Of a DNA stretch of 64,000 nt, positions 11,537 through 37,185 are shown one piece after another. Below the pieces are notes generated by a model that was not told the origin of the DNA, ran no database searches, and saw nothing but the letters and a program-made list of their open reading frames with translations. The stretch lies in contig NZ_SPQR01000001.1 in NCBI RefSeq assembly GCF_004766055.1, positions 310,001 through 374,000 of the forward strand, in the 5' to 3' direction. The DNA comes from Desulfosporosinus sp. Sb-LF (GTDB lineage: Bacteria > Bacillota > Desulfitobacteriia > Desulfitobacteriales > Desulfitobacteriaceae). Within the stretch, counting starts at the first letter, position 1, and every line of letters starts with the position of its first letter. Position numbers and translations under genes: made by a program.

Positions 11537-11552
11537 TGGCACGATAATTGCT
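11537..11552 (+). promoter_or_regulatory. sigma-54 promoter of aor
   Basis: TGGCACG-N4-TTGCT is an exact match to the sigma-54 -24/-12 consensus (GG at 11538-11539, GC at 11550-11551). It lies about 100 bases before the aor start codon. Confidence 0.92.
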
Positions 11553-14465: not shown

Positions 14466-14586
14466 GATAATTAAGGGTAAATTAGGGTATATATTACGAT
14501 TAATTCTAAACCGTTGCATTCATACAAGAACATAGGAACTCTAACTTAATACTAATACAAAAAGATCACGAAAGGTGTTATGGAAC

Positions 14587-15828: not shown

Positions 15829-15870
15829 CGTTATATACACAGAACTGTAGGAATGGGGAGGCAAAAGAAA

Positions 15871-18943: not shown

Positions 18944-19098
18944 AGCGATAGCCTCCAATACATCATGGAAGGCGTGTTTATTATTAAACACACCCTGGCG
19001 TGGGATTGAAACTGTCAGAGGTTCATGGGCAGACTGAGGGGAAAACAATCTATCCCACTTGAATGGTATCGTATTCTTCACACAAGGTCAAGTATGAG

Positions 19099-19222: not shown

Positions 19223-19238
19223 TGGCACGAATTTTGCA
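19223..19238 (+). promoter_or_regulatory. sigma-54 promoter of the Mop operon
   Basis: TGGCACG-N4-TTGCA, an exact -24/-12 match (GG 19224-19225, GC 19236-19237). The start codon of mop is 260 bases away, leaving a long 5' leader that contains a small reading frame. Confidence 0.92.
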
Positions 19239-19329
19239 TATTTTATTGATCGAGCCAAGTAAAGCAAAGCCAATCAAATCAAAACAATCTAGACCAAATT
19301 AAACACAAAAAAGAATGGGAGGAACAGAT

Positions 19330-19404
19330 TTGTCAGTTGTTCATCAGATGGATGGGTGGGGAAATTGCTTTACTGACGATCGATACTTTGCTCAACATAA
19401 GTAG
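19330..19404 (+). CDS. possible 24-residue leader peptide
   Basis: A short frame TTG to TAG with a strong GGGAGG site about seven bases upstream, inside the leader between the sigma-54 promoter and mop. The peptide would be MSVVHQMDGWGNCFTDDRYF followed by AQHK. A GTCAGT/ACTGAC inverted repeat spans most of it. It could be a regulatory leader peptide or a chance frame; nothing else in the 18944-19497 interval looks coding. Confidence 0.35.
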   Translation: MSVVHQMDGWGNCFTDDRYFAQHK

Positions 19405-19497
19405 AAGTGGTATGAGAATTTGTAACTCAAGATAACCGGAAGAACGCATGCAGTAACCTTGTAGAGAATGAATTGAATCAAAAAGGAGCGAAAAAAA

Positions 19498-22224
19498 TTG
19501 CTTAAAAAAAATGTAGTCATTAACGGTGTCCCCCAAACGTTACTTGTCGATGGAGAAGTTACCCTAGCCAATGTGTTGAGGGGACAACTGCATATGACCG
19601 GAACTAAAATAGGATGTGGAAAAGCTCAATGTGGTGCATGTTCTGTTATTGTGAATGGAAAAGTCATCCGCTCCTGCGTTACCAAAATGAAACGGGTTGC
19701 TGATGATGCACAAATCACCACTATTGAAGGAGTGGGCACCAAGGAACACTTACATCCCTTGCAGCTAGCTTGGATGATCCATGGAGCTGCTCAATGTGGT
19801 TTCTGTAGTCCTGGATTCATTGTTTCAGCTAAACAACTTTTAGAGGAAAATGTCAATCCAACTAGAGAAGATGTCCGGGATTGGTTCCAAAAACACAGAA
19901 ATGCGTGCAGATGCACTGGGTATAAGCCTTTAGTTGACTCTGTCATGGAAGCTGCTCGGTTAATTCGGGGTGAGGTTACTGTTGAAGAGTTATTCGTAAA
20001 ATTACCTGCTGATGGCAAAATCATTGGAACTGAATACATTCGTCCGTCCGCTATGGCTAAGGTTACCGGTACCTGGGACTTTGGTGCTGATGCCGGACTC
20101 AAAATGCCTTGCGGAACTCTGCAACTTAAACTGGTTCAGGCCAAGGTTTCTCATGCCAATATTCTTTCTATCGACACATCTGAGGCTGAAAAAATGCCTG
20201 GCGTATATAAAGTTATTACTTATAAAGATGTTGTCGGCAAAAATCAAATTACTGGTTTAATCACTTTTCCAACGAACAAAGGGGATGGATGGGACCGTCC
20301 GATCCTATGCGAGAAAAAAGTGTTCCAATTTGGTGATGCCATAGCCATTGTTGCAGCCGATACTGCTGCACATGCTCAGGCTGCCGTTGAAAAAGTAAAG
20401 GTGGAGCTCGAATTACTTCCTGAATATATGAGCGCTCCTGCCGCTATGGCAGATGACGCTATTGAAATTCATCCTGGAACACCGAACGTTTATTTTGAAA
20501 CCAAGGTGGTAAAAGGCGAAGATACTGCGCCTTTAATGAAGGCAGCAGATGTAGTAGTTGAAGATAGTTTTTATGTCGGACGTCAGCCTCACCTACCCAT
20601 TGAGCCAGATGTCGGATTTGCCTTCTACGATGAAGATGGCAAATTGATCATCCATTCTAAAAGTATTGCAATTCATCTCCACCAGGCTATGATTGCTGCA
20701 GGAATCGGAATTGAATCAGAAAAACTGATTCTGGTACAGAACCCAACCGGCGGAACCTTTGGTTATAAGTTCAGCCCAACAATTGAAGCCTTATTAGGGG
20801 TTGCCGCAGTTGCTACAGGTAAACCTGTATACCTAGAGTTTGACTATTTCCAACAAACGACTTATACCGGAAAACGTTCGCCTTTCTTTATTGACCTTAA
20901 ACTAGGGGCCACTAAAGAAGGTAAATTAACGGCTATGGAATCTGATTGGACAGTAGACCATGGTCCATATTCCGAATTTGGTGACTTGCTCACCATGCGG
21001 GGCACTCAGTTTATAGGCTGTGGTTATAACATCCCTAATATTCGCGGTAATGGACGAACCGTATGTACGAACCATGCTTGGGGTTCAGCTTTCCGGGGTT
21101 ATGGATCTCCTCAAAGTACCTTCTCGTCTGAGGTTTTGATGGATGAACTAGCAGAAAAACTGGGCATAGATCCATTTGAACTGCGTTATAAAAACGTCTA
21201 CAGACCTGGTGACACTACACCTACCGGTTGTGAACCAGATGTTTACTGCATGGTGGAGATCATGGATAAACTTAAACCTGCTTACACAAAAGCACAAGAA
21301 TGGGCAAAACAGCCAGCATCAGCTGCTGACAAGAAACGCGGAATTGGAATGTCCATCGGTGTCTATGGATCAGGTCTAGACGGAGCGGACAGTTCTGCAG
21401 TCAATGCTGAGCTAACTGCAACGGGCGTTACAATTTATTCTTCATGGGAAGATCATGGTCAAGGCGCGGATATGGGAACATTAACGATCGCTCATGAGGC
21501 TTTGCGTCCGTTGGGAATTAAACCGGAAGATATTAAACTTGTTATGTGTGACATGGCATTAACCCCCAACAGCGGACCTGCCGGCGGAAGTCGTTCTAAT
21601 GTTTTGTGCGGTAATGCTACTCGGGTTGCTTGCGAAATGCTGTTGAAAGGGATCACGAAAGCGGATGGATCCTTCCGAACCTATGAAGAAATGATTGCTG
21701 AAAAGTTACCAGTATATTTTGAAGGTGTTTGGACCGCTCCTGCTAAAGATTGCGATGTAGAGACTGGACAAGGGAATCCCTTTGCTGTTTATATGTATGG
21801 AGCCTTCCTGTCTCAAGTTGAAGTCGACATCACGACAGGTAAGACTGAAGTTGTAAAAATGACGATGGTAGCCGATGTGGGTAAAATTATTAATAAACTG
21901 GTAGTAGACGGACAACTCTATGGTGGGTTGATTCAAGGTCTTGGTCTAGCCCTGAGTGAGGATTTCGAGGACCTGAAGAAACATACAGATTTGATCGGCT
22001 GCGGACTACCCTTTATCAAAGATGCCCCGGACAATATTGAACTTCTCTATGTAGAAACCTTAAGACCTCATGGTCCTTTCGGTGCTGCAGGCTCGGGAGA
22101 ATTGCCGCTGACATCCCCTCATGCTTCTATTATTAATGCTATTTACAATGCCTGCGGAGCACGGATTACTCATTTACCTGCTCGTCCTGAAAAAGTACTT
22201 GCTGCACTTGATGCTAAAAAATAA
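19498..22224 (+). CDS. mop: Mop-type molybdenum aldehyde oxidoreductase (xanthine oxidase family)
   Basis: Hydroxylates aldehydes to carboxylic acids with a molybdopterin cytosine dinucleotide centre and two [2Fe-2S] clusters. At 908 residues it aligns along its length with Desulfovibrio gigas Mop (907 residues, from memory). Plant-type cluster ligands are C40, C45, C48 and C60; the second cluster uses the CGFC pair (about 100-103) and CRC (about 137-139). The molybdenum domain shows GGTFGYKFSP, WGSAFRGYG, GQGADMGT, GGSRSNV, and near the C-terminus GAAGSGELPLTSP with the catalytic glutamate. There is no FAD domain, as in Mop. TTG start with an AAGGAG site. It heads the operon and is sigma-54 driven. 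Confidence 0.95.
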   Translation: MLKKNVVINGVPQTLLVDGEVTLANVLRGQLHMTGTKIGCGKAQCGACSVIVNGKVIRSCVTKMKRVADDAQITTIEGVGTKEHLHPLQLAWMIHGAAQCGFCSPGFIVSAKQLLEENVNPTREDVRDWFQKHRNACRCTGYKPLVDSVMEAARLIRGEVTVEELFVKLPADGKIIGTEYIRPSAMAKVTGTWDFGADAGLKMPCGTLQLKLVQAKVSHANILSIDTSEAEKMPGVYKVITYKDVVGKNQITGLITFPTNKGDGWDRPILCEKKVFQFGDAIAIVAADTAAHAQAAVEKVKVELELLPEYMSAPAAMADDAIEIHPGTPNVYFETKVVKGEDTAPLMKAADVVVEDSFYVGRQPHLPIEPDVGFAFYDEDGKLIIHSKSIAIHLHQAMIAAGIGIESEKLILVQNPTGGTFGYKFSPTIEALLGVAAVATGKPVYLEFDYFQQTTYTGKRSPFFIDLKLGATKEGKLTAMESDWTVDHGPYSEFGDLLTMRGTQFIGCGYNIPNIRGNGRTVCTNHAWGSAFRGYGSPQSTFSSEVLMDELAEKLGIDPFELRYKNVYRPGDTTPTGCEPDVYCMVEIMDKLKPAYTKAQEWAKQPASAADKKRGIGMSIGVYGSGLDGADSSAVNAELTATGVTIYSSWEDHGQGADMGTLTIAHEALRPLGIKPEDIKLVMCDMALTPNSGPAGGSRSNVLCGNATRVACEMLLKGITKADGSFRTYEEMIAEKLPVYFEGVWTAPAKDCDVETGQGNPFAVYMYGAFLSQVEVDITTGKTEVVKMTMVADVGKIINKLVVDGQLYGGLIQGLGLALSEDFEDLKKHTDLIGCGLPFIKDAPDNIELLYVETLRPHGPFGAAGSGELPLTSPHASIINAIYNACGARITHLPARPEKVLAALDAKK

Positions 22225-22257
22225 TTAGTTCGTTTTTGGCCCACAAAACTAAAAATC

Positions 22258-22292
22258 GGAACCTAAAATTGGTTTATCCAATTTTAGGTTCC
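22258..22292 (+). terminator. strong hairpin after mop
   Basis: A perfect 15-bp stem (22258-22272 with 22278-22292, GGAACCTAAAATTGG and its complement) with a five-base loop and a weak T tract. It probably ends or attenuates mop transcription so that the accessory genes are made at a lower level. Confidence 0.75.
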
Positions 22293-22386
22293 CGTTTATA
22301 CCAGGGTAGAATGTATAACTTCCTGGTGGGCCCGTTCTCGCCAGCTCAAGCGCCTTGCCATCATGGCATCTAGCCATCCCGGCGAT

Positions 22387-22458
22387 GCTCTAATCTTAAA
22401 CATCTTTGTTTGAGTCTTGGCGGCGCTCTAACCTCGAACGTCCTGTTCGAGTCATGGC
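22387..22458. repeat. two tandem imperfect hairpin units, 38-bp period
   Basis: Unit A (22387-22421) and unit B (22425-22458) both read GCTCTAA-YC...GTTYGAGTC-TGGC. Each folds into a hairpin: CTTAAAC/GTTTGAG with one GU pair in A, and CTCGAAC/GTTCGAG perfect in B. More degenerate material of the same GC-rich character (GCCATCATGGC) lies at 22330-22386. It looks like a small intergenic palindromic repeat element; no ORF is present. Confidence 0.55.
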
Positions 22459-22497
22459 CAGCGCATATCAGTGCTACTAAGGCGACCGCCTACGAAA

Positions 22498-22516
22498 GGG
22501 CTTGGCGCTAGCCAAG
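22498..22516. repeat. palindromic element shared with the tup locus
   Basis: CTTGGC-GCTA-GCCAAG preceded by GGG. An identical 18-bp stretch occurs in reverse orientation at 35030-35047, between tupA and tupB. A reading frame entered here (MALAK) is an artefact of the repeat; the next gene's real start is downstream. Confidence 0.6.
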
Positions 22517-22561
22517 TATTCTATACCCGCACGCAATAACTTAAGGAAGTGGGTGTTGCTT

Positions 22562-24865
22562 ATGGAACAGGACGAATTAAAAAGACAAGAAGATAAGTGT
22601 ACCCAAGAGAATCCCCCTGCTTGTACAGCAGGTTGTCCAATCCACGTAGATGCTCGGAAATTGATGCTGGATATTCAAAATCAGGACTTGAAAAGTGCCT
22701 TAGCAACACTGCAAAAAAAACAGCCCTTTCCCGGAATTATTGGTCGGGTTTGTGATCATCCCTGTGAGGATGTCTGTAAACGCAAAGAGGTTGGAACGAC
22801 TATCGCTATTTCAGCCCTGGAGAGATTTTGCGTGCAAAACCAAGCTGGAAAAATAGCCAAAGCAGGGATAGTTCCCCCAAAAAGCCAGACAGTTGCAGTC
22901 GTCGGGTCTGGACTAAGAGGCCTAACTGTAGCCTATGACTTGGCTAAAAAAGGATATAAGGTTAGTCTGTTTGAGAAAGCAGATCGCCTTGGTGGAAACC
23001 TGTGGAATTTTCCGGAACATCAATTGCCTCCAGAGGTTATTGTCGAGGAACTGTCCGTCTTGAACCGGCTTAACGTTCAAATAGAGTTAAAGACTGCAAT
23101 AACTGGGCAGGGTTTAGCCAAGCTTCAAGAAGACTTTAATGTAGTGTATCTTGGCCTTGCTGAGCAATCTAAAGAAGTCAGGGAGCTCTTGGGTGAACAG
23201 TTGTGGGTCGACCCAGTCACGTGTGCTACACAGATTCCAGGAATATTTAGCGGGGCACTTTTGGGGAATGATTCCCCCATTAAGTCTGTTGCCGATGGCC
23301 GTAAGGCTGCCGTTTCCATTGATAGATATTTGCAGGGCGTTTCCTTAACTGCCTCTCGTAAAGGCGAGGGGCCTATTGAGACTAAACTATTCGTCAATAC
23401 GAATGGGATTCCCCCTCTGCCAGTGGTGGCAATGAGTAACGAAACTGGGGGTTATACACCCGAAGAAGCCGTTCAGGAAGCAGGTAGGTGCCTGAATTGT
23501 CAATGTCTCGAATGTGTGAAGGCCTGTAAATATATGCAAGAATACGGTAGTTATCCCAAAAAGTATTTAAGACAAATTTACAATAATGATACGATCGTCA
23601 TGGGCATGCGCCACGGGAATAAAATGATCAATTCTTGCAGTTTGTGTGGGCAGTGTGCTGTAGTTTGTCCTCAAGGACTAGACCTTGGGGAGACCTGCAA
23701 AGCAACCCGGGAGAGCATGGTGAGCAAAGGAAAAATGCCCCCTTCAGCCCACGATTTTGCCCTGAGGGATATGGCATTTAACAACAGTGAAGAATTTTCC
23801 TTAACCAGACAACAACCTGGCCATAATTCTAGTAAGTATGTTTTCTTTCCCGGATGCCAATTAAGTGGCTCTTCACCGGAACAGGTTGAAAAAGTGTACG
23901 CATATTTAACTGAAAAGCTTTCTGGAGGAGTAGCCCTAATGTTACGTTGCTGCGGTGCTCCGGCCGATTGGGCTGGTAATCAAGACCTGTTCCAAAACAG
24001 TTTGAAGGTTTTGGTTGCGGAGTGGGAAACCTTAGGCAAACCGGAGCTGATCGTAGCTTGTTCCACCTGTCACAGTATGTTCCGAGAAAAGTTTCCAGGA
24101 GTAGTCTCTCTGTGGGAGTTGATGGCTGATTCGGATTTACCTGTGCAAGGTGCCAGCGTGAGTAGAGGCAAAGTAGCTGTCCAGGATGCTTGTACTACGA
24201 GACATGAACCAGTCATACAGGATGCCGTCCGAGACATCTTAACTAGGCTGGGTTACGAAGTTGAAGAATTGCCCTACAGCAAAGAACGAACCAAGTGTTG
24301 TGGCTTTGGAGGGCTGACGTCTTTTGCCAATCCGGGATTGGCGAAAAAGATCGTGGAAGATCGAATAAGTGAAAGCACAACAGACTATGTAGCCTACTGT
24401 GCCATGTGCAGAGATAATTTTGCGTCTAAGGGTAAACGCACGTTTCATTTATTAGATTTAATTTTTGGAACTGACCTTGAAAAAGCTGCCATCAGGCCAA
24501 GTGTAGGATTTTCCAATCGGCATGAGAACCGGGCAAAACTAAAAAGAAAGTTTTTACATTCGCTGTGGAAAGAAGCTCCACAAGAAAAGGAAGGAGCGTA
24601 TCGAATCATTAACCTCTTGTTAAATGAAAGCGTTCTGGAAGTAATGGAAGATCGACGTTTTCTTATAGAAGATATTCAACAGGTAATAGAACTTGCGGAG
24701 CGAACAGGAAGAAAGTTCATAAATCCGGACAATGGTCACAGTTTAGCTTATTATCGCCCTGTCAAGGTGACCTATTGGGTTGAATATCAACCACAGGAAA
24801 AAGGCTTTGTGGTCCTAAATGTGTATAGCCACCGCATGGAAATTGTGGAGGACAGTCATGAATAA
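22562..24865 (+). CDS. FAD/NAD- and FeS-binding oxidoreductase with CCG (HdrD-like) domains
   Basis: Likely electron-transfer partner of Mop. Domains in order over about 767 residues: a GltD-type cysteine-rich N-terminus (CTAGCPIHVDARK, CDHPCEDVCKR), a FAD-binding Rossmann motif VAVVGSGLRGLTVAYDL, a ferredoxin-like region (CLNCQCLECVKACKY, then SCSLCGQCAVVCPQG), and two CCG motifs as in heterodisulfide reductase D (FFPGCQLSG...RCCGAP and DACTTRHE...KCCGFGG). ATG 22562 is preferred, with AAGGAAG upstream. NCBI names this family, as I recall, pyridine nucleotide-disulfide oxidoreductase/dicluster-binding protein, next to Mop in Desulfovibrio. Direct transfer from Mop clusters is inferred. Confidence 0.85.
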   Translation: MEQDELKRQEDKCTQENPPACTAGCPIHVDARKLMLDIQNQDLKSALATLQKKQPFPGIIGRVCDHPCEDVCKRKEVGTTIAISALERFCVQNQAGKIAKAGIVPPKSQTVAVVGSGLRGLTVAYDLAKKGYKVSLFEKADRLGGNLWNFPEHQLPPEVIVEELSVLNRLNVQIELKTAITGQGLAKLQEDFNVVYLGLAEQSKEVRELLGEQLWVDPVTCATQIPGIFSGALLGNDSPIKSVADGRKAAVSIDRYLQGVSLTASRKGEGPIETKLFVNTNGIPPLPVVAMSNETGGYTPEEAVQEAGRCLNCQCLECVKACKYMQEYGSYPKKYLRQIYNNDTIVMGMRHGNKMINSCSLCGQCAVVCPQGLDLGETCKATRESMVSKGKMPPSAHDFALRDMAFNNSEEFSLTRQQPGHNSSKYVFFPGCQLSGSSPEQVEKVYAYLTEKLSGGVALMLRCCGAPADWAGNQDLFQNSLKVLVAEWETLGKPELIVACSTCHSMFREKFPGVVSLWELMADSDLPVQGASVSRGKVAVQDACTTRHEPVIQDAVRDILTRLGYEVEELPYSKERTKCCGFGGLTSFANPGLAKKIVEDRISESTTDYVAYCAMCRDNFASKGKRTFHLLDLIFGTDLEKAAIRPSVGFSNRHENRAKLKRKFLHSLWKEAPQEKEGAYRIINLLLNESVLEVMEDRRFLIEDIQQVIELAERTGRKFINPDNGHSLAYYRPVKVTYWVEYQPQEKGFVVLNVYSHRMEIVEDSHE

Positions 24866-25070
24866 CACACCAAAACAGACGCAGAAAACCCTTTGGAATT
24901 GTGGTAAATGCGGTGGAGAGCTCCAGCGTGGTTCGGTAAAGGCATCCTACTTGGGTAATGATTTTGTGGTGGAAGAATTAAAATGTCTTAACTGTGGCTT
25001 GGTATTGATTACGGAGGAACTGGCTTTAGGTAAGATGTTCGAAGTTGAACAAAGTTTAGAGGATAAGTAG
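24858..25070 (+). CDS. small zinc-ribbon/redox protein (DVU_1557-like)
   Basis: A 70-residue protein with two CxxC knuckles, NCGKCGG and KCLNCGL, separated by about 25 residues, so it should bind zinc or iron like a rubredoxin or zinc ribbon. ATG 24858 has a GTGGAGGA site and overlaps the end of the upstream gene by eight bases, which means translational coupling. The order matches the DVU_1559-1557 neighbourhood of Desulfovibrio as I remember it. The function is unknown; a redox or assembly role for Mop is suggested only by location. Confidence 0.75.
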   Translation: MNNTPKQTQKTLWNCGKCGGELQRGSVKASYLGNDFVVEELKCLNCGLVLITEELALGKMFEVEQSLEDK

Positions 25071-25081
25071 GAGGGAGTAAG

Positions 25082-25528
25082 ATGGCGGTCGATGCCTTTC
25101 GTATGTTTCAATTGGCCACACAGGGATTTTGTTGTAGCCAAATTATGTTAATTCTGGGTTTGGACGAACAAGGAAAGGAAAACTCCGATTTAATCAAAGC
25201 AATGCATGGTTTGTGTGGAGGAATAGGACGGTCGGGAAAAACCTGTGGTGCACTTACCGGGGGGGCATGTTTAATTGGTTTGAACGTTGGGAAAGGAAAT
25301 CTCCTCGAATTCGGTCACGCCAAAATAAACCTTATGATCAATGACTTGATGGAATGGTTTGAAAACACCCATGGCAGTATCGATTGCGATGGGATACTAG
25401 ACCACTCACTTGATGAGGGCAACGAGTATCCTGTGCAATGTGGCAATATTGTTGCAACGACCTTTAGTAAGGTGCAAGAGATTTTAGCAGCCTATTCAGA
25501 AGACCCTGAGTCCAATGATGAGGAATAA
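25082..25528 (+). CDS. C_GCAxxG_C_C family protein
   Basis: A 148-residue protein of the C_GCAxxG_C_C family (putative redox-active or metal-binding proteins). Motif residues visible: CC in GFCCSQIML (about 17-18), GLCGGIGRSGKTCGALTGG (about 48-66), and later single cysteines (CDG and CGN). Six to eight cysteines in a small soluble protein suggest an FeS cluster or disulfide chemistry. It begins 11 bases after the zinc-ribbon gene with an AGGAGGGAG site. It corresponds to the DVU_1555-type member of the Desulfovibrio Mop cluster (from memory). Function unknown. Confidence 0.8.
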   Translation: MAVDAFRMFQLATQGFCCSQIMLILGLDEQGKENSDLIKAMHGLCGGIGRSGKTCGALTGGACLIGLNVGKGNLLEFGHAKINLMINDLMEWFENTHGSIDCDGILDHSLDEGNEYPVQCGNIVATTFSKVQEILAAYSEDPESNDEE

Positions 25529-25533
25529 AAATT

Positions 25534-26277
25534 GTGAAAAACAATGTTTTTAAATTATATGAAAGTGACGTTCTGCGCCTTACTACAGGTGATACGTTAA
25601 GACCGGGTGGGTTTTCCTTAACCGACTTGGGAGTTGAAAGCTGTGATTTTCTTCCAGGCGCAAGGGTCTTAGATGTGGGCTGCGGCAGCGGTGCAACGGT
25701 AGAGCGTTTGGTTTCTCTTTATCAGCTCCGAGCCACAGGTTTAGACCCTTCAGAGGTGCTGTTAGAGAGTGGGAAAAAGAAGAATCCAGGCTTAAATCTG
25801 ATCCGAGGGCTAGGCGAAGACCTACCCTTTCCGGCTAACCACATGGATGGGGTATTAGCGGAGTGTGCCTTGTCTGTAATGGAGGACCTGGATCAGGTTC
25901 TGATAGAAATTTTCAGGGTTCTCAAACCTGGTGGGTTGTTGGTCGCTAATGATGTGTATGCTCGAAATCCTGACGGTATCAAAGGTCTTCAGGAACTCAA
26001 TCTCAATTCATGTATCAGAAGAGCGTTGCCAAAGGAGCAATTAATCAACAAACTTCTCAAACAGGGATTTAACATCGTTAATTGGAGTGATCATACAAAC
26101 CTATTAACACAACTAACGGTTAACCTAATCATGACTCATGGCTCTATGACAAAGTTTTGGCTTAAGTCTTCTTCATGTTCAGGATCTGTTGATCCTATCC
26201 TTGCCCAGGCTGCGATTAAGGAAGCCAAGATGGGATACTTTCAACTGATCGCAAAGAAAGAAGCAAGCTGTAGTTAG
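25534..26277 (+). CDS. class I SAM-dependent methyltransferase
   Basis: A 247-residue protein with a methyltransferase fold. SAM motif I is VLDVGCGSGATVERL (about residues 44-58), followed by ATGLDPSE and the later motif LKPGGLLVANDVY. It starts at GTG 25534 with a GAGGAATAAAA site five bases after the upstream stop. The last 80 residues are not typical of known small-molecule methyltransferases. Its substrate is unknown; in the context of Mop and a radical SAM protein it may modify a cofactor, protein or small metabolite. It corresponds to the DVU_1556-type family as I recall. Confidence 0.82.
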   Translation: MKNNVFKLYESDVLRLTTGDTLRPGGFSLTDLGVESCDFLPGARVLDVGCGSGATVERLVSLYQLRATGLDPSEVLLESGKKKNPGLNLIRGLGEDLPFPANHMDGVLAECALSVMEDLDQVLIEIFRVLKPGGLLVANDVYARNPDGIKGLQELNLNSCIRRALPKEQLINKLLKQGFNIVNWSDHTNLLTQLTVNLIMTHGSMTKFWLKSSSCSGSVDPILAQAAIKEAKMGYFQLIAKKEASCS

Positions 26278-26290
26278 AGAGGAATAGCAC

Positions 26291-27625
26291 ATGGAAGTAA
26301 TGGACGAACGCTTGATTTCCACAACAGAGAGCTTGTGTCCAGAATGTTTGAAGAGGATTTCGGCTCAAAGAGTGGTTAAAGGAGAAAAGGTTTATCTTGT
26401 GAAACGTTGCCCTGAACATGGAGCCTATCGAACACTGCTGTGGCGTGGTAGCCCTCAATGGGATGAATGGGTCAGGCCTATGATTCCAACCCCACCCAAG
26501 GAGTGTTTTACACCCGTTGAGAAAGGCTGTCCCTTTGATTGCGGCTTGTGCGAAAACCATTACCAGACGACTTGTACGGCTTTGATAGAGGTTACACAGC
26601 GTTGTAATTTAAACTGCAAATTTTGTTTTGCCAATGCAGGAACGGAGCTTGACGAACCTTCATTGGAGAGGATAGAAAAGTGGTACAAAAACGTACTTGC
26701 TGCCAGTGGCCCTGTCAATATCCAGTTGTCTGGCGGCGAGCCAACCCTCAGAGACGATCTGCCGGAAATAGTAGAAATGGGAAGAGCACAGGGCTTTAAC
26801 TTTATCCAACTTAACACGAATGGATTGCGACTGGCAGAAGATCCTATCTTTTTGAGCCGATTGAAAAAGGCTGGTCTCAGCTCCGTGTTTTTACAATTTG
26901 ACGGTACTGAGGACCAGATTTATCAGTCAATAAGGGGGCGTAGGCTTTTTGATGTTAAAGCCAAAGCTATAGAGTGCTGTGCACAACACGAGATTGGTGT
27001 TGTGTTAGTACCTACCTTGATACCAGGCATAAACACTCATAATATCGGAGGAATCATTAAGTTTGCCTTGAAAAATCATCCCGTCGTCAGAGGTGTGCAC
27101 TTCCAACCCGTAAGTTATTTCGGAAGAATACCTAAAGAACCCATGGATCAAGACCGGATCACACTCCCGGAAGTCATTCAAGCGATCGAGGAACAGACAG
27201 ATGGGCTCATTAAAGCAACGAACCTGAAACCCCACAATGGCCGATGCTCCTTTAGCGGCAACTTTACAAGACAACTGGATGGGAGTTTAAAGCCTATTGT
27301 AAACAGCTCGTGCTGTACCGGACCAGAGCGAGCGGATGAGTTGGCTAGAAAAACACGAACTTTTGTGGCGCGGCAGTGGTCAGGAACAGAAAAATCAACG
27401 ATTCAGTCTCCTAGCACCAATTCCTGGGACAATCTAATTCAACAGCTAAAGACCTATGCCTTTTCCATCAGCGGCATGGCCTTTCAAGATGTGTGGAATC
27501 TAGATATAGACAGGTTGAAGAATTGTTGTATACATGTGGTAAGCCCGGAAGGTAAGTTAATTCCTTTTTGCGCTTATAACCTTACAGATAAGTTTGGACA
27601 CTCAATATATCGGAGGGGGAGATAG
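26291..27625 (+). CDS. trsS: radical SAM protein of the TrsS/Tes-like group
   Basis: A 444-residue radical SAM enzyme. An N-terminal knuckle (CPEC at 16-19, CPEHG at 40-44) resembles a rubredoxin-like site. GCPFDCGLC (79-87) adds cysteines. The radical SAM cluster is C105, C109 and C112 (RCNLNCKFC), followed by LSGGEPTLRDDLPE and LQFDGTEDQIYQSIRG. C-terminal cysteines are at 319, 341, 342, 412, 413 and 427 (FCAYNLT). The pattern closely recalls archaeal tetraether lipid synthase (Tes, MJ0619), which joins unactivated carbons and holds several FeS clusters. NCBI calls this family radical SAM (seleno)protein TrsS, as I recall; here all positions are Cys and the gene has no in-frame TGA. Substrate unknown. 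Confidence 0.82.
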   Translation: MEVMDERLISTTESLCPECLKRISAQRVVKGEKVYLVKRCPEHGAYRTLLWRGSPQWDEWVRPMIPTPPKECFTPVEKGCPFDCGLCENHYQTTCTALIEVTQRCNLNCKFCFANAGTELDEPSLERIEKWYKNVLAASGPVNIQLSGGEPTLRDDLPEIVEMGRAQGFNFIQLNTNGLRLAEDPIFLSRLKKAGLSSVFLQFDGTEDQIYQSIRGRRLFDVKAKAIECCAQHEIGVVLVPTLIPGINTHNIGGIIKFALKNHPVVRGVHFQPVSYFGRIPKEPMDQDRITLPEVIQAIEEQTDGLIKATNLKPHNGRCSFSGNFTRQLDGSLKPIVNSSCCTGPERADELARKTRTFVARQWSGTEKSTIQSPSTNSWDNLIQQLKTYAFSISGMAFQDVWNLDIDRLKNCCIHVVSPEGKLIPFCAYNLTDKFGHSIYRRGR

Positions 27626-27628
27626 GGC

Positions 27629-28969
27629 TTGAATATAAAATCCACATCGCTTGAGCCCTGGATCAAACACAAAATTACCGGAGATAGTTCAGGACGCTTA
27701 ACCAGAAAGCAAATCGAGGACTATCAGTTGGCAAAATTGCAGGAAACCCTTGACTGGGCAATCAGTAAAAGCCGTTTCTATACACGTCTGTACTCAGGAT
27801 TAGATTGTAAGATATCAAGTTTTCAAGATGTGTTAAAACTGCCCTTTACCACGTCCGAAGAGTTGAAAGATAATCCTCTCGATTTCTTGTGTGTTTCCCA
27901 AAATGACATCAACAGGATCGTGACGTTACAGAGTTCCGGCACTACGGGAAAACCTAAACGCCTGTTCTTTACTCAGGCTGATCAAGAATTGACCATCGAT
28001 TTCTTTCATCATGGAATGTTAACTTTGGTGAGGCCTGAAGACAGGGTCTTGATAATGTTACCCGGGGAAACACCGGGCAGTGTCGGGGATTTACTGCGCT
28101 TAGGCTTAGAAAGGGCGGGTGTAATAGGGGTTGCCCACGGTCTGGTTACGAACCCAGAGGCAACCCTAAAGCAAATCAAACGGGACAATATTAATGTTTT
28201 AGTCGGGATACCCACACAAGTATTGAGCCTAGCAAGGTTTAAAGATTCCAAGGGCTCTTCTCCCCTTCTGAACTTAAGAAGTGTTTTACTGAGTACCGAT
28301 TATGTACCCCTTGCTATTGTGCAAGAAATCGAAAGGGCATGGAGTTGTAAGGTGTTTAATCACTATGGCATGACTGAGATGGGGCTAGGCGGCGGACTAG
28401 AATGTGAGGGTTTCTGTGGTTACCACCTCAGGGAAGCAGACCTCTATATTGAAATCGTCGATCCCAGTTCAGGAATGCCCGTTGTGGATGGGCAACCAGG
28501 AGAGGTAGTAGTTACTACTTTGACCAGAGCAGCTATGCCTTTAATTCGGTATCGCACCGGTGACATGTCGAGGTTTATTCCAGGCCTTTGTGCGTGCAAT
28601 ACGGTATTGAAGCGGCTGGAATTGATAAAGTCGAGAGACAGAGTTTATCTGACCCAGACCGATTACCTAACCATGGCGGACTTCGATGAGGTTCTGTTTG
28701 CGCTTAACAATGTTCTCGATTTTGAGGTAACCCTAACAGAGGGTATAGAAAAAGAAAACCAGTTACAACTTGATGTTCAGTTAAGGGGACCTCTTACCTG
28801 GGAAGCGAAAAGAAATGTTCAACAGGCATTAGATCAAATCCCTGTAGTAAGGGATGCTAGAAAAAACGGTAGCTTGAGGGCGTCCTTTTACCTTGTATCA
28901 AGCCCTGTAGTGATATCTAGAAGAAGTACAGCTAAACGGCAGATTCAAGATAAGAGAGGGAGTGTTTAA
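27629..28969 (+). CDS. phenylacetate-CoA ligase-like AMP-dependent enzyme (DVU_1553-like)
   Basis: Adenylate-forming enzyme of 446 residues, PaaK type. The ATP/AMP-binding P-loop is QSSGTTGKPKRL (101-112). HYGMTEMGLGG (about 247-257) is the adenine-binding A5 region, and RYRTGDMSRF (about 305-314) the hinge region. It starts at TTG after a GGAGGGGGAG site, three bases past the radical SAM gene. By family it would activate an aryl or alkyl carboxylate as the acyl-AMP and then the thioester. Because Mop makes carboxylic acids, the product of aldehyde oxidation is a natural guess for its substrate, but the short frame and the company of a methyltransferase also allow a biosynthetic role. Confidence 0.82.
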   Translation: MNIKSTSLEPWIKHKITGDSSGRLTRKQIEDYQLAKLQETLDWAISKSRFYTRLYSGLDCKISSFQDVLKLPFTTSEELKDNPLDFLCVSQNDINRIVTLQSSGTTGKPKRLFFTQADQELTIDFFHHGMLTLVRPEDRVLIMLPGETPGSVGDLLRLGLERAGVIGVAHGLVTNPEATLKQIKRDNINVLVGIPTQVLSLARFKDSKGSSPLLNLRSVLLSTDYVPLAIVQEIERAWSCKVFNHYGMTEMGLGGGLECEGFCGYHLREADLYIEIVDPSSGMPVVDGQPGEVVVTTLTRAAMPLIRYRTGDMSRFIPGLCACNTVLKRLELIKSRDRVYLTQTDYLTMADFDEVLFALNNVLDFEVTLTEGIEKENQLQLDVQLRGPLTWEAKRNVQQALDQIPVVRDARKNGSLRASFYLVSSPVVISRRSTAKRQIQDKRGSV

Positions 28970-28970
28970 A

Positions 28971-30125
28971 TTGTTGGCTGAACCAGAGAACAAACCGGGT
29001 GAGGCTTCCTTAGCAGCAATTATAGTTGCCGCAGGATACTCTTTTCGAATGAAACGTTTTAAACCGCTTTTATCGCTGGGCGGTGGCACAGTATTAGAAA
29101 AAGCTGTACACAGTTTTCAGAAGAGCGGAATTAGGGATATCCGGGTGGTCGTTGGGCATCGGGCGAATGAATTGTATCCTGTCTTAGATAGATTAGAAGT
29201 TCAGACTATCGTCAACCCCAATTTTTCCGAAGGAATGTTCTCATCAGTTACATCTGGGGTTAAAAGCTTATCACCAATGGTAAAAGGATTTTTTCTTTTA
29301 CCCGTCGATAATCCGATAGTGAACCGTGATACCTTGAAAAAGCTTCAGAACACGTTCTTTACAACGGAATTTGGTATTATATATCCGTCCCATCAGGGAA
29401 TGAGGGGACATCCCCCCTTAATTTCTTGCCGCTATGTGAACAATGTAATAACATGGAACAAACCGGGGGGAATGAGGGCCTTATTAGAACAGTATGAACA
29501 TGATGCCATAGATGTTGAGGTTGATGACCCAGGTATTTTGCTTGACATGGACACACCGGAGGACTACCATCAGATGCTGAAATACTGTGGACATATCCAG
29601 GTACCCTCAGAAGAAGAGTGTTATGTTATAATAAAAAATGCTAACACTCCTGTAAGGGTGTTTAATCACTGCAAGCAGGTTGCCCACTTAAGTAGTGCAA
29701 TGGGAAGCTATTTGATCAGGTCAGGTTGTCAAATGAACATTGAACTAATCAGGGCGGCTGCGCTGTTACATGACTTGGCCAAAGGTGAACCCCACCATGC
29801 CCAAGTTGGAGCCAAAATGCTCATCAATTATCCAGAGGTGGCAGAAATTGTCGCCGAACATACGGACATTTGCCTGAACCCTGACCAATCCTTAACAGAA
29901 AAAGAAATCGTCTATTTGGCTGATAAGCTTGTTATTGAAGACCAGATAATTTCACTCCAGGACAGATTCGCAGGTCCCTTGGAGCAGCACAAGAACGATC
30001 AAGAGGTGACGAAAAAGATTAGGCGTCGATTTAGTAATGCTGAAAGAATCCAGACAAGAATAGAAGAAATAATTAAGATGCCTTTACATGACCTATGGAA
30101 GGCTGATCTAGGGGGGCAAGGCTAG
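28971..30125 (+). CDS. MobA/MocA-like nucleotidyltransferase fused to HD domain (DVU_1551-like)
   Basis: Two-domain protein of about 384 residues. Residues 1-200 are a MobA/MocA/GlmU-type NTP transferase: AAIIVAAGYSFRMKRFKPLL, VDNPIVNRDTL, and GRGHPPL-like MRGHPPLIS with LDMDTPEDY. Residues about 215-380 are an HD domain (NHCKQVAHLS, LLHDLAKGEPHH, VAEHTD). MocA makes the cytosine dinucleotide form of the pterin that Mop-type enzymes need, so that is the likely job. The HD half suggests a built-in phosphohydrolase. I prefer TTG 28971, about ten bases past GAGAGGG; the GTG at 28962 is too close to that site. Confidence 0.83.
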   Translation: MLAEPENKPGEASLAAIIVAAGYSFRMKRFKPLLSLGGGTVLEKAVHSFQKSGIRDIRVVVGHRANELYPVLDRLEVQTIVNPNFSEGMFSSVTSGVKSLSPMVKGFFLLPVDNPIVNRDTLKKLQNTFFTTEFGIIYPSHQGMRGHPPLISCRYVNNVITWNKPGGMRALLEQYEHDAIDVEVDDPGILLDMDTPEDYHQMLKYCGHIQVPSEEECYVIIKNANTPVRVFNHCKQVAHLSSAMGSYLIRSGCQMNIELIRAAALLHDLAKGEPHHAQVGAKMLINYPEVAEIVAEHTDICLNPDQSLTEKEIVYLADKLVIEDQIISLQDRFAGPLEQHKNDQEVTKKIRRRFSNAERIQTRIEEIIKMPLHDLWKADLGGQG

Positions 30126-31237
30126 TGGAAAAAGAAATACAACTTGGGCTCAAAAAAGCATTTGATCAAAACTTGGAGGCAGCCCTGATTACTGTAACCA
30201 GTGTGCTTGGGTCAACACCTCGCAAGCCTGGAGCTAAAATGTTAGTTTTCGCTGATGGGACGACGGTTGGAACCATCGGAGGTGGATGTGGTGAGGCCGA
30301 GGCCAGGCGGGAGGCCTTTAATGTAATAGCAGCATACACCCCAAAGATACATTATTTAAATATGACCGCGGACATTGCCCAGGAGGAGGGAATGGTTTGC
30401 GGGGGTATCATGGGATTATTCATTGAATATTTGGGTTCTCAAAGCCCCGTGGAACAGACCAATCTCAACAAAGATTATCTGTCATCTTTAGAGAACTACA
30501 AAAACCCCATACTTATAACAGTGATTGAATCGGTTGAGGAACAATTGATAGGAAAAAAGCTATTCATCAAGAATAACGGAGACGTCGTAGGTGATTATAG
30601 TTTAGAAAAATTAAATAGAGTTGCACTAGAGAGTGCTAAAACAGGGGGGAGAAGATGCCAACCGTTATTAATTAGTTTGGATTCCGAGTTTGAGCCATGT
30701 GAAACCTCAGTGACAAAAGCGCCTTTCCGGTTACTAATTGAGCCCCCAACGTCTGTCGTACAATTGCTGATTTTAGGTGCAGGACATATTGCGCTTCCCC
30801 TTGCAACCATGGCCAAAATCGTTGGATATGAGGTTACTGTAGTCGATGATCGGCCATCTTTTGCTAATTCTGCTCGATTTAGCACTGCTGATACGATTAT
30901 ATGCAATAATTTTGAACGAGCATTAGATGGGATAAATATTAATCCGCAGACATTTGTTGTGATTATAACTAGGGGGCATCGCTATGACAAAGTATGTCTG
31001 CAGAAAGTGATTAATCAACCAGCTTCATATATTGGCATGATCGGTAGTCGCAAAAGGGTTAAAGCATTGATCGCTGAATTGGAGGAGGAAGGAGTCTCGA
31101 GTGAATCGTTGCAAAAACTGTATTCTCCAATCGGTCTAAAAATTGGGGCAGAAACTCCTGAAGAAATAGCCGTGAGCATTCTCAGTGAGCTGATTAAAGT
31201 TCAAAGGGAGTTGGATCAGAATGGGAAACTACGATGA
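30125..31237 (+). CDS. xdhC: XdhC/CoxI family molybdenum hydroxylase maturation factor
   Basis: Binds the molybdenum cofactor, helps sulfurate it and inserts it into xanthine oxidase-family enzymes. The 370-residue protein has the XdhC N-terminal motif (VLGSTPRKPGAKMLV, TVGTIGGGCGEAEAR) and a C-terminal Rossmann domain (LLILGAGHIALPLATMAKIVGYEVTVVDDR, ITRGHRYD, YIGMIGSRKR). It starts at GTG overlapping the previous stop by one base. Its place in the mop operon strongly suggests it matures Mop. Length and motifs are normal for the family. Confidence 0.93.
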   Translation: MEKEIQLGLKKAFDQNLEAALITVTSVLGSTPRKPGAKMLVFADGTTVGTIGGGCGEAEARREAFNVIAAYTPKIHYLNMTADIAQEEGMVCGGIMGLFIEYLGSQSPVEQTNLNKDYLSSLENYKNPILITVIESVEEQLIGKKLFIKNNGDVVGDYSLEKLNRVALESAKTGGRRCQPLLISLDSEFEPCETSVTKAPFRLLIEPPTSVVQLLILGAGHIALPLATMAKIVGYEVTVVDDRPSFANSARFSTADTIICNNFERALDGININPQTFVVIITRGHRYDKVCLQKVINQPASYIGMIGSRKRVKALIAELEEEGVSSESLQKLYSPIGLKIGAETPEEIAVSILSELIKVQRELDQNGKLR

Positions 31238-31249
31238 TCCTCAAAAACA

Positions 31250-31873
31250 ATGGGTAAAAAGCTTATTTATTTAGCTAGGCACGGCGATATCGGTCTTGGA
31301 AGAGATAAACGCTATATCGGTCAATCGGACCTTCCGTTAAGTGCTCTTGGAGTGAAGCAGGCTACCTTATTGAAAGAGATATTTAGTCGGATGCCCTTAG
31401 ATAACATATATTGCAGTGATCTAGAGCGAGCGCAACAAACAGCAGAGATTATTTCCTCGGCTCATTCAATCATTCCAACAGCTCGCGTTGAGTTACGTGA
31501 ATTGAATATGGGTGATTGGGAGGGGAAACTATTTTCTGAAATTCGAGCTAAGAATCCTCAGGAATTTGAAAAACGTGGTAAAGATATAGCGAATTACTGT
31601 TCACCAGAGGGAGAAAGCTTTTCCGACTGCTCCAAAAGGGTTATACCTATCTTTGAAAGCCTTGCCCAATCCAATGAAAATACCATTTTAATTATTGGAC
31701 ATGCAGGTATAAACCGAGTAATCTTATGTAGAGTACTCGGAATACCCTTAGAAAACGTCTTTCGTTTTGAACAAAGCTATGGTTGCGTAAACCTAATCTC
31801 CAAGGATGGTTTAATGTACCGGTTGAAATATCTTAACAATGAAGTGAATTGTGACCCAAACGGCATGGATTAA
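31250..31873 (+). CDS. histidine phosphatase family protein
   Basis: A 207-residue phosphoglycerate mutase-like enzyme. The catalytic RHG is in IYLARHGDIGLG near the N-terminus; SDLERAQQTAEII, ELNMGDWEG and the second histidine in ILIIGHAGINRVIL complete the site. Closest functional models are alpha-ribazole phosphatase (CobC) and small-molecule phosphatases. It follows xdhC by 12 bases without a strong ribosome binding site. A phosphatase at the end of a cofactor operon may act on a pterin or nucleotide intermediate; this is inference. Its stop codon lies inside a terminator hairpin. Confidence 0.85.
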   Translation: MGKKLIYLARHGDIGLGRDKRYIGQSDLPLSALGVKQATLLKEIFSRMPLDNIYCSDLERAQQTAEIISSAHSIIPTARVELRELNMGDWEGKLFSEIRAKNPQEFEKRGKDIANYCSPEGESFSDCSKRVIPIFESLAQSNENTILIIGHAGINRVILCRVLGIPLENVFRFEQSYGCVNLISKDGLMYRLKYLNNEVNCDPNGMD

Positions 31874-31897
31874 ATTGTTCGCAACAATTTAATCCAT
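31865..31897 (+). terminator. terminator of the Mop operon
   Basis: A perfect 15-bp stem (31865-31879 with 31883-31897) around a CGC loop, overlapping the stop codon of the phosphatase gene; followed by CTTTTATTT. Confidence 0.82.
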
Positions 31898-32102: not shown

Positions 32103-32118
32103 TGGCATGAATCTTGCT
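32103..32118 (+). promoter_or_regulatory. sigma-54 promoter of the alcohol dehydrogenase
   Basis: TGGCATG-N4-TTGCT, one mismatch from the -24/-12 consensus, with both invariant GG and GC present. It lies 50 bases before the start codon. I found no TGTTC-N7-GAACA dyad upstream, only two TGTTC half sites near 31950-31970. Confidence 0.85.
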
Positions 32119-32167: not shown

Positions 32168-33331
32168 ATGTCGATCATTCATCAAGTATATGGGTATTAC
32201 ATGCCAACAGTAAACCTTATGGGAGCTGGGGCAGCTCAAGAAACAGGAAAACAAGCCAAATTACTGGGTGGAAAAAAGGTACTATTGGTAACCGATGCCT
32301 ATCTCGAAAAAGTTGGAATGGCTCAAGAAATTGCAGACATTATTAATAAAGAAGGCGTCAAAGTTGTTATTTATGGCGGTGCTGAACCGAATCCAACAGA
32401 TAAAAACGTGCATGATGGGTTTGACATCTATACTAAAGAGGGTTGTGACCTGATTGTATCCGTAGGCGGAGGATCTTCCCATGACTGCGCAAAAGGAATT
32501 GGCCTTGTTGCAGGTAATGGCGGAAGAATTAATGATTATGAAGGCGTCGATAAATCCCCACTACCAATGGCTCCTATGATTGCTATTAACACAACAGCTG
32601 GTACTGCCGCTGAAATGACCAGATTCTGTATTATCACAGATGCTGCAAGGCATATTAAAATGGCCATCGTTGATTGGCATGTAACCCCGAATGTCTCGAT
32701 TAATGATCCCTTGTTGATGATGAAACAACCGCCTAGCTTAACCGCTGCCACAGGAATGGATGCACTCACTCATGCTGTCGAAGCGTATGTTTCCACAGCT
32801 GCTACACCAGTGACTGATTCGGCTGCTTTAATGGCTTTTAAATTAATCCCTAGGTACTTACGTCGTGCCGTAGCAAATGGCGATGATTTCGAGGCTCGTG
32901 ACAAAATGGCTTATGCGCAATTATTAGCTGGTATGGCGTTTAATAATGCCAGTTTAGGTTATGTTCATGCAATGGCTCATCAATTAGGTGGATTCTATAA
33001 TTTGCCTCATGGTGTATGTAACGCAATCCTTCTGCCCCACGTTTCACGCTTTAACATGATTGGTAATCTCGATCGTTTTGCTGAGATCGCTGTAGCAATG
33101 GGAGAAAATGTTGACGGACTTTCTGTACGGGATGCTGCTGAAAAATGCTTAACCGCAATCGCCACCTTGTCTCAAGATGTCGGAATTCCTTCAGGGCTAA
33201 GTGAACTGAATGTAAAAGAAGAAGACTTCGCTCTGATGGCTGGAAATGCGAAATTAGATGCTTGTCAATTCACCAATCCTCGCACAGCAACGCTTGAACA
33301 AGTCATTCAAATCTATAAAAATGCTATGTAA
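32168..33331 (+). CDS. iron-containing alcohol dehydrogenase
   Basis: Group III alcohol dehydrogenase of 387 residues, oxidising primary alcohols with NAD(P). The NAD-binding GGGSSHDCAKGIG (about 97-109) and the iron-binding D/H set are visible: D in ATGMDALTHAVEAYVS, H in VHAMAHQLGGFYNLPHGVCNAILLPHV. It starts with GGGAGGA and ATG, and a strong terminator follows. With AOR and Mop under similar promoters it would supply aldehydes from alcohols, or remove them in reverse. The natural alcohol cannot be deduced. Confidence 0.93.
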   Translation: MSIIHQVYGYYMPTVNLMGAGAAQETGKQAKLLGGKKVLLVTDAYLEKVGMAQEIADIINKEGVKVVIYGGAEPNPTDKNVHDGFDIYTKEGCDLIVSVGGGSSHDCAKGIGLVAGNGGRINDYEGVDKSPLPMAPMIAINTTAGTAAEMTRFCIITDAARHIKMAIVDWHVTPNVSINDPLLMMKQPPSLTAATGMDALTHAVEAYVSTAATPVTDSAALMAFKLIPRYLRRAVANGDDFEARDKMAYAQLLAGMAFNNASLGYVHAMAHQLGGFYNLPHGVCNAILLPHVSRFNMIGNLDRFAEIAVAMGENVDGLSVRDAAEKCLTAIATLSQDVGIPSGLSELNVKEEDFALMAGNAKLDACQFTNPRTATLEQVIQIYKNAM

Positions 33332-34290: not shown

Positions 34291-34291
34291 A

Positions 34292-34993: not shown

Positions 34994-35022
34994 ACTGTTA
35001 CCTACCCGTTTCAATTTAGATG

Positions 35023-35049
35023 AAAAAGGCTTGGCTAGCGCCAAGCCTT
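35023..35049 (-). terminator. tupA-tupB intergenic palindrome/attenuator
   Basis: AAGGCTTGGC/GCCAAGCCTT with a four-base loop, followed on the minus strand by TTTTT. It should lower permease and ATPase expression relative to the binding protein. Eighteen bases are identical to the element at 22499-22516. Confidence 0.8.
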
Positions 35050-35077
35050 AACTGCTTTAATAAGTTATTAGCAATAA

Positions 35078-35986: not shown

Positions 35987-36057
35987 ATTTATTTCCTCCA
36001 TCTCATCTTTCTAAAAAACGAACGACCTCTCTGTTCCTTTCCGTACCATCTCGTTCT

Positions 36058-36975: not shown

Positions 36976-37185
36976 ATAGTTCACCTCCACACCATTCACC
37001 TTACATTATTCAGTTTAGAATAGTGAGACTAGCAAGTCAATACAGATGTTGAAAACAGAGGGTTTTAATTTTGTTTAGTTTGTTGTATTTGGCGTTTTTA
37101 AATCTTTCGACAGAAATCTTCAATGCGTTTAACACAAGTTGAAGTGTGATAGAGTAAAATGATTGTATACAAGATATTATTTTTA

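Follow-up and report, generated by a model that had tools for sequence, protein, structure and literature searches.

A Ten-Gene Mop Operon in Desulfosporosinus sp. Sb-LF and Its Conserved Accessory Genes

Co-Inheritance of Mop and Its Partner Genes

We analyzed a 64,000-nt stretch of the Desulfosporosinus sp. Sb-LF genome (contig NZ_SPQR01000001.1, positions 310,001 to 374,000; hereafter the window), in which the gene encoding Mop, a pterin-dependent molybdenum aldehyde oxidoreductase, is followed on the same strand by nine genes spanning 22562-31873 (table 1). Genome comparisons strongly support that Mop is almost always inherited with a fixed set of partner genes. All ten genes occur in the order and on the strand described in an earlier note made from this DNA alone, the nine partners encoding successively a flavin adenine dinucleotide (FAD)/dicluster/CCG oxidoreductase, a zinc ribbon, a C-GCAxxG-C-C protein, a methyltransferase, the radical S-adenosylmethionine (SAM) protein TrsS, a PaaK-like adenylate-forming enzyme (the CoA-ligase-like enzyme below), a MocA-like nucleotidyltransferase-HD fusion (MocA-HD), XdhC, and a histidine phosphatase. 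We tentatively explain the operon as Mop, its electron-transfer partner, and a two-module maturation or activation system for certain molybdenum/tungsten (Mo/W)-pterin enzymes, which we regard as quite possible without going so far as to call it probable.

Among 247 genomes of the Desulfovibrio order (the order of Halodesulfovibrio), searched for Mop at E <= 1e-250 and for TrsS at E <= 1e-100, Mop was detected in 160, TrsS in 158, both in 151, and neither in 80 (Fisher p 1e-45, kinship between genomes ignored); TrsS thus accompanies Mop in 151/160 genomes, and Mop accompanies TrsS in 151/158. Inspection of the discordant genomes covered eight of the nine with Mop only (except G253) and five of the seven with TrsS only (except G217 and G242). 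In G258, G307, and G318, a split or enlarged TrsS fell below the threshold, and in G251, G255, G374, and G396, where TrsS was not matched, the locus runs into the contig edge. Among the TrsS-only genomes, G319 and G411 are cut at the contig start, G177 and G222 carry distant TrsS relatives (L196 and L197), and G361 has two TrsS genes and the CoA-ligase-like gene with Mop absent. A tandem pair of TrsS genes followed by a CoA-ligase-like gene occurs at L148 (8658-11257), with no Mop in that stretch.

A similar picture emerged from 149 genomes of the window's phylum, ten of which had TrsS above cut-off and one more, G072, a clear TrsS match. The methyltransferase was above cut-off in the same 11 genomes, all of which encode Mop (truncated in G076), and the CoA-ligase-like enzyme and the C-GCAxxG protein co-occurred with Mop in 8/8 and 6/6 cases. 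Two further genomes, G073 and G083, encode Mop but neither TrsS nor the methyltransferase, and in both of them the Mop gene reaches a contig end. Since a xanthine-oxidase-family protein (E <= 1e-100) was found in 59 of the 149 genomes but the set in just 11, the set tracks the Mop subfamily and not the superfamily. In 26 genomes picked for a TrsS locus lacking Mop, Mop was above cut-off elsewhere in 18, truncated in three (G153, G155, and G156), and absent from five (G159, G165, G166, G169, and G171). The accessory genes are therefore not widespread without Mop in the 149 + 247 genomes, and this near-perfect co-inheritance bears out the earlier idea of a dedicated accessory set. Its presumed conservation between distant phyla was likewise recovered, with loci in Bacillota, Desulfobacterota, Chloroflexota, Campylobacterales, Acidobacteriota, Rhodoferax, and others. 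The locus scan took in the closest 80 of at least 567 TrsS relatives, so that contexts of distant TrsS are under-sampled; among these 80, the closest match to the window TrsS is the Desulfosporosinus locus L045 (90% identical).

Gene Products and Previous Naming of the Set

The window Mop matched its family model NF045668 over residues 3-904 with 1665.9 bits (cut-off 1100), and was aligned by phmmer along its full length with the enzymes of D. gigas and D. desulfuricans (PDB 1SIJ/1VLB and 1DGJ; 1390 and 1372 bits). Its Pfam domains (Fer2, Fer2_2, and the Mo domains) are those of the D. gigas enzyme, and it is predicted to oxidize aldehydes with molybdopterin cytosine dinucleotide (MCD) and two [2Fe-2S] clusters. 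Nine of the products have dedicated NCBIfam models (NF045645, NF045646, and NF045663-NF045669), several named after DVU_1551, 1553, 1555, 1556, 1557, and TrsS, and eight products exceeded their cut-offs. XdhC did not reach that of NF045664 (312.1 bits, cut-off 350), its XdhC domains being present by Pfam, and the phosphatase passed TIGR03162, a general alpha-ribazole phosphatase model that is not set-specific.

These matches agree with the statement in the earlier note that DVU_1551-1559 of Desulfovibrio vulgaris comprises the same set. They also show that the gene set had already been seen and named by NCBI curators, and its description as uncharacterized holds for function: a literature search by DVU numbers, TrsS, and their combinations, from which subscription papers were mostly absent, returned no functional study of the set. 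Passages of a D. vulgaris fitness paper (PMC10102598) contain no mention of DVU_155x.

The last ~85 residues of the oxidoreductase (24608-24862) form a separable domain, DC90, found elsewhere as its own open reading frame or fused to the DVU_1557 ribbon. Residues W57, H75, and R76 are invariant in DC90. Its structural model (predicted local distance difference test, pLDDT, 90) resembles small folds of the RelE/BrnT type to a middling degree (best Z 7.7); neither this resemblance nor stray matches to DUF4258/DUF2240 point to a function.

Two Modules within the Set

Gene content was counted in the 40 loci in which TrsS is flanked on each side by at least 9.5 kb. DC90 or the oxidoreductase was present in 40, the ribbon in 39, the C-GCAxxG protein and the CoA-ligase-like enzyme in 38 each, and the methyltransferase in 37. 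Mop was present in 37, or 38 when L071 is counted, where Mop runs off the edge; this leaves L103 and L076, the latter being the second such locus of a Sporomusa genome that encodes Mop at another site. Lower counts were obtained for XdhC (29), MocA-HD (28), and the phosphatase (25), and all 11 loci lacking XdhC also lack MocA-HD and the phosphatase, a loss as a block. The genes that look puzzling for a maturation system are thus bound more tightly to Mop than the ordinary maturation factors. One stretch (L131), at first sight a maturation island separate from Mop, starts with the end of a TrsS gene; the simplest view is that it continues the L041 locus on another contig.

In the explanation that we favor, a first module composed of MocA-HD, XdhC, and the phosphatase would make and insert MCD; its specificity for Mop is suggested by family knowledge and by its absence beside BamB, described below. 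The second module, which comprises the methyltransferase, TrsS, the CoA-ligase-like enzyme, the C-GCAxxG protein, the zinc ribbon, and DC90, would serve a step common to particular Mo/W-pterin enzymes.

Partner Enzymes Other Than Mop

The set is not exclusive to Mop. At L103 and L112, genes on one strand follow the order BamB(-BamC)-MoeA-[DC90+ribbon]-methyltransferase-TrsS-CoA-ligase, with the C-GCAxxG gene before TrsS in L112 and the small Fe-S partner BamC in L103 (BamC match, E 4e-79); at L056, BamB is divergent from the core. The best solved relative of the AOR-family protein of L103 and of L056 is BamB (PDB 4Z3W, full length, E 4e-301 and 5e-244), and the L112 protein is 53% identical to that of L056. 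BamB is the tungsten enzyme of class II benzoyl-CoA reductase, an aryl-CoA reductase and not an aldehyde oxidase. XdhC, MocA-HD, and the phosphatase had no match in these three loci, and beside BamB the oxidoreductase is reduced to DC90, kept with the ribbon, its FAD/Fe-S part being absent. No Mop above cut-off was found in the genomes of L103 and L112, while that of L056 has Mop elsewhere. In a quick TrsS tree with SH-aLRT support only, L103/L112 and L056 branch at two distinct positions among the Mop-linked sequences, a topology by which the core acquired BamB as a neighbor at least twice.

More distant TrsS proteins have other neighbors. In clade B (~35% identical), a dimethyl sulfoxide (DMSO)-reductase-family enzyme adjoins TrsS in 10/10 loci (some labels by eye), with MoaA- or MoeA-like genes in six of the ten, and L193-L195 of a third clade also lie beside a DMSO-reductase-family enzyme. 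The TrsS relatives of L193-L195 and L090 (9968-12145) are ~720 residues long, and that of L090, the one scanned, has a C-terminal DUF5714. What Mop, BamB, and the DMSO-reductase family have in common is a metal-pterin center and not a substrate.

These partner changes bear on two other explanations. In the first, the second module would make a diffusible organic redox carrier running from Mop (and other enzymes) to the FAD/dicluster protein, lost on purification and missed in dye assays. The oxidoreductase, the C-GCAxxG protein, and the ribbon are indeed redox proteins and among the steadiest genes, and such a carrier would be invisible to D. gigas crystals and artificial assays. We nevertheless consider it rather unlikely, because only DC90 and the ribbon remain of its presumed acceptor beside BamB, clade B TrsS pair with membrane-type enzymes in the absence of the other core genes, and passages of PMC10223205 report that D. 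gigas Mop works with flavodoxin.

The second explanation, that of substrate or product metabolism, would have an alcohol or aryl compound converted to an acid by an alcohol dehydrogenase and Mop and then activated by the CoA-ligase, with BamB reducing the aryl-CoA. A PaaK-like CoA-ligase is present, BamB acts on aryl-CoA, an alcohol dehydrogenase adjoins the operon, and a table row of PMC10920352 places DVU_1559 under ethanol metabolism. Still, the alcohol dehydrogenase occurs in just 6/80 loci, XdhC, MocA, and MoeA genes are mixed in among the core genes, and TrsS relatives accompany DMSO-reductase-family enzymes with no CoA-ligase; this explanation also leaves no role for the radical SAM, ribbon, and C-GCAxxG proteins, and we judge it unlikely. 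The substrate pathway for Mop offered in the earlier note is weakened accordingly by the BamB and DMSO-reductase-family contexts.

TrsS and Tetraether Lipid Synthase

TrsS scored 671.8 bits against NF045646 (cut-off 490), which places it in that family. Its profile retrieved the tetraether lipid synthase PDB 7TOL (E 1e-119) far above other solved proteins, and its model (pLDDT 89.6) superimposed on 7TOL with a template modeling (TM) score of 0.80, the next structure reaching 0.45. Against the tetraether synthase (Tes) model NF045702 it scored 390 bits, below the cut-off of 450. According to passages of PMC9433317, Tes carries a rubredoxin-type motif, an N-terminal cluster with a His ligand, a radical SAM motif, and a labile Met. 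All Tes metallocenter motifs are kept in the window TrsS: C-X2-C-X20-C-X2-H, the C/C/C/H cluster, CX3CX2C, and the C-terminal cluster with the labile Met. Across 51 clade-A rows, the eleven named ligands are invariant, the Met is conserved in 49, and Cys412 in 50 (one gap); which of the Cys residues bind the C-terminal cluster is inferred from the alignment.

Passages of PMC9433317 also describe how Tes couples sp3 carbons via a bond to cluster sulfur and remark on bacterial homologs whose role is unknown. Formation of a C-C or C-S bond is, by this analogy, the best guess for TrsS. Tes itself couples lipid tails. A role of both TrsS and the methyltransferase in membrane lipid chemistry, with shared anaerobic physiology as the only link to Mo/W enzymes, would suit the sequence and fold of TrsS, to which tetraether lipid synthase is closest; the near one-to-one co-inheritance and adjacency with Mop, maintained across many phyla and varied gene orders, make it very improbable.

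Selenocysteine gave no hint of the active site. An in-frame TGA was found in none of 80 TrsS matches, and the TGA near the end of the L050 methyltransferase is its stop codon, other tails ending elsewhere.

The D. gigas Enzyme and the Role of the Second Module

The Mop of D. gigas is a model for xanthine oxidase, and the protein encoded in genome G267 is 100% identical to the crystallized enzyme. Around mop, this genome carries genes for a molybdopterin (MPT)-binding protein, the oxidoreductase, the ribbon, the methyltransferase, the C-GCAxxG protein, TrsS, the CoA-ligase-like enzyme, XdhC, and the phosphatase, so that nine of the ten set genes are present, counting mop itself; no MocA-HD was detected within the 30 kb examined around mop. 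Despite the model status of the enzyme, its gene is surrounded by a conserved set of seemingly untested purpose.

As described in passages of PMC3877041, no mononuclear Mo enzyme had a crystal structure before D. gigas Mop, whose structures reach 1.57-1.75 A. The same passages describe the enzyme as active with an oxo ligand and as switched by the redox state of the dithiolene, and they give equal mass and Mo content for active and inactive batches. The native enzyme has the ordinary pyranopterin cytosine dinucleotide cofactor, according to passages of PMC10223205. Given that D. gigas has the set and yet an ordinary cofactor, a permanent change of the cofactor or protein looks unlikely there, unless the genes are silent or the group is labile. 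A permanent modification of the Mop pyranopterin cofactor or of a Mop residue by the second module would agree with the tight co-inheritance, with the clustering of TrsS relatives with molybdenum cofactor biosynthesis genes, and with the Pfam name of the TrsS N-terminal domain, which refers to a proposed pterin methylase; the cofactor seen in D. gigas makes it improbable. The name also led us to consider TrsS as a pterin methylase (HMPTM, on its N-terminal ribbon), a candidate that we rejected, as the MJ0619 assignment behind it is uncorroborated and MJ0619 is a lipid enzyme. Regarding the dedicated pathway to a modified cofactor or substrate suggested in the earlier note, the dedicated set stands, whereas a permanently modified cofactor conflicts with the D. 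gigas data.

We infer that the second module acts on the metal center. TrsS (through tetraether-synthase-type radical chemistry with cluster-bound sulfur), the adenylating enzyme, and the methyltransferase would jointly build a small organic group used during assembly, protection, or (re)activation of the metal-dithiolene center, and this group would leave no visible covalent change in the cofactor, being transient or lost on purification. Several observations weigh against this proposal. The purified D. gigas enzyme works in vitro, where the artificial assay needs no core product, and Mop looks genuinely alone in G073 (L125; 8.9 kb downstream examined) and is a genuine lone gene without the set in G178 (L139). 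None of 20 other BamB loci has any core gene, no methyltransferase or CoA-ligase adjoins clade B and C TrsS in the stretches read, no Mo/W enzyme lies within ~10 kb of the TrsS relatives of L196, L197, and L044, and L090 adjoins cobalt-type transport genes. Additionally, a PaaK-like enzyme near an aldehyde oxidase and an aryl-CoA reductase would also suit aromatic-acid metabolism.

Labile selenium is lost on aerobic purification in some related enzymes. It is a long shot that Mop in vivo bears a labile extra ligand or group, organic or sulfur-containing, at the Mo-dithiolene center, which TrsS, the adenylating enzyme, and the methyltransferase would build and which would be lost when the enzyme is purified in air. 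If so, what has been described as the "oxo" form of D. gigas Mop, and its variation in activity between batches, would reflect partial loss of this group, and some BamB and DMSO-reductase-family enzymes would rely on the same chemistry. More generally, the two-module explanation, if true, would add to Mo/W enzyme biogenesis a new step with tetraether-synthase-type radical chemistry, spread over several enzyme families and phyla.

Promoters, Spacing, and Genomic Surroundings

The earlier note had named a consensus sigma-54 promoter for Mop. The exact TGGCACGAATTTTGCA at 19223 has counterparts in L045, L046, and L047, where the -24/-12 motif precedes Mop by 215-284 nt. These are three of the four other Desulfosporosinus Mop loci examined; the fourth, L049, has no such site upstream, and its Mop is just 47% identical. 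With at most one mismatch, the pattern has four matches in the window, and at least four occurred in 17/100 shuffles, so the count alone is unremarkable; the motif is present in 5/46 Mop upstream regions versus 26/4000 random 500-nt stretches. Based on the GG-N10-GC consensus and its conservation across the Desulfosporosinus loci, the site is assigned as a putative sigma-54 promoter, in line with the note.

The nine genes after Mop are spaced by -8 to +13 nt, and the only long gap of the operon is the 337 nt (22225-22561) between Mop and gene 2, which contains a hairpin. Such a structured gap possibly sets the ratio of Mop to the accessory proteins. A hairpin resembling it is found in L046 and, weakly, in L045.

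The operon sits in a larger Mo/W island (9376-36999). The alcohol dehydrogenase that follows it also occurs in L045, L046, and L047 and is likely a functional partner of the operon, and the genes at 33574-36999 look like tungstate/molybdate uptake and control. Elsewhere, DUF364/DUF4213 "putative heavy-metal chelation" genes were found at L131 (8287-10103), L139 (4506-10367), and L192 (14096-14839), with FecCD-type transporters in L131, directly after the accessory set, and in L139, beside the lone Mop. L127 (5442-12609) and L206 (14375-18540) encode a second type of molybdenum hydroxylase, ~38% identical to Mop, adjoining a DsrC/TusE-type sulfur-relay protein and a cysteine-desulfurase-like protein, and in L127 also the set's methyltransferase, CoA-ligase, and phosphatase.

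Table 1. Features of the Mop operon and its surroundings (window positions)
Feature	Position	Strand	Evidence or remark
Sigma-54 activator	9376-11235	-	
AOR-family gene	11653-13446		own exact -24/-12 site at 11537; closest solved relative 9G7J
ThiF-family gene	13779-14465		
MoeA-type genes	14575-15828 and 15853-17781		
MPT-binding protein	17921-19081		divergent
Sigma-54 (-24/-12) promoter-like site of Mop operon, TGGCACGAATTTTGCA	19223-19238	+	exact motif match
Mop, 908 aa, TTG start	19498-22224	+	NF045668
Inverted repeat, 15 bp, between Mop and gene 2	22258-22292	n/a	T-run on minus strand only
FAD/dicluster/CCG oxidoreductase ("diclust_near_Sec")	22562-24865	+	NF045663, 1072 bits; Fer4_20, NAD_binding_8, Fer4_17, CCG
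DVU_1557-family zinc-ribbon/rubredoxin-like protein, ~70 aa	24858-25070	+	NF045645, 92 bits; DUF7479
DVU_1555-family C-GCAxxG-C-C protein	25082-25528	+	NF045669, 167 bits; PF09719
DVU_1556-family SAM methyltransferase	25534-26277	+	NF045667, 243 bits
TrsS radical SAM protein, tetraether lipid synthase relative	26291-27625	+	NF045646, 672 bits
DVU_1553-family PaaK-like adenylate-forming enzyme	27629-28969	+	NF045666, 466 bits; motifs SSGTTGKPK, YGMTE, YRTGD
DVU_1551-family MocA-like nucleotidyltransferase-HD fusion	28962-30125	+	NF045665, 448 bits; NTP_transf_3 + HD
XdhC-family maturation factor	30125-31237	+	NF045664, 312.1 bits; Pfam XdhC_C, XdhC_CoxI
Histidine phosphatase, CobC model passed	31250-31873	+	TIGR03162, 173 bits, cut-off 162.9
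Intrinsic-terminator-like hairpin, operon end	31865-31897	+	
Sigma-54 site before alcohol dehydrogenase	32103-32118	+	near-consensus, one mismatch
Iron-containing alcohol dehydrogenase, eleventh gene	32168-33331	+	PF00465, PF25137
ABC ATPase	33574-34290		
PBP_like_2 binding protein	35078-36001		
HTH_17/PBP_like regulator	36058-36999		

Comparison with Known Systems

The operon is closest to the Mop locus of the DVU_1551-DVU_1559 type, in which Mop is adjacent to TrsS, the methyltransferase, the CoA-ligase, and the C-GCAxxG, ribbon, and dicluster proteins, as found here with eight products above the family cut-offs and one approaching its own. Gene order varies between lineages, however, and the window has the MocA-HD fusion and the phosphatase inside the operon and the alcohol dehydrogenase after it. 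With XdhC/MocA maturation of xanthine-oxidase-family enzymes it shares XdhC, the MocA-like protein, and the upstream MoeA and MPT-binding genes, but adds radical SAM, methyltransferase, CoA-ligase, C-GCAxxG, and ribbon proteins that are steadier than XdhC and MocA. Class II benzoyl-CoA reductase BamBC shares the core in L103, L112, and L056, although most BamB loci are without it, and its reaction and cofactor (W-bis-MPT) are unlike those of Mop. Finally, Tes (GDGT-MAS, MJ0619, 7TOL) resembles TrsS in full-length homology, in the rubredoxin and radical SAM motifs and the N-terminal cluster with His, and in the C-terminal cluster cysteines and labile Met position, whereas TrsS is bacterial, reaches against Tes 44 to 56% of its own-family bits (390 vs. 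672), in most cases has an extra CC motif, and keeps Mo/W-related and not lipid-related gene partners.

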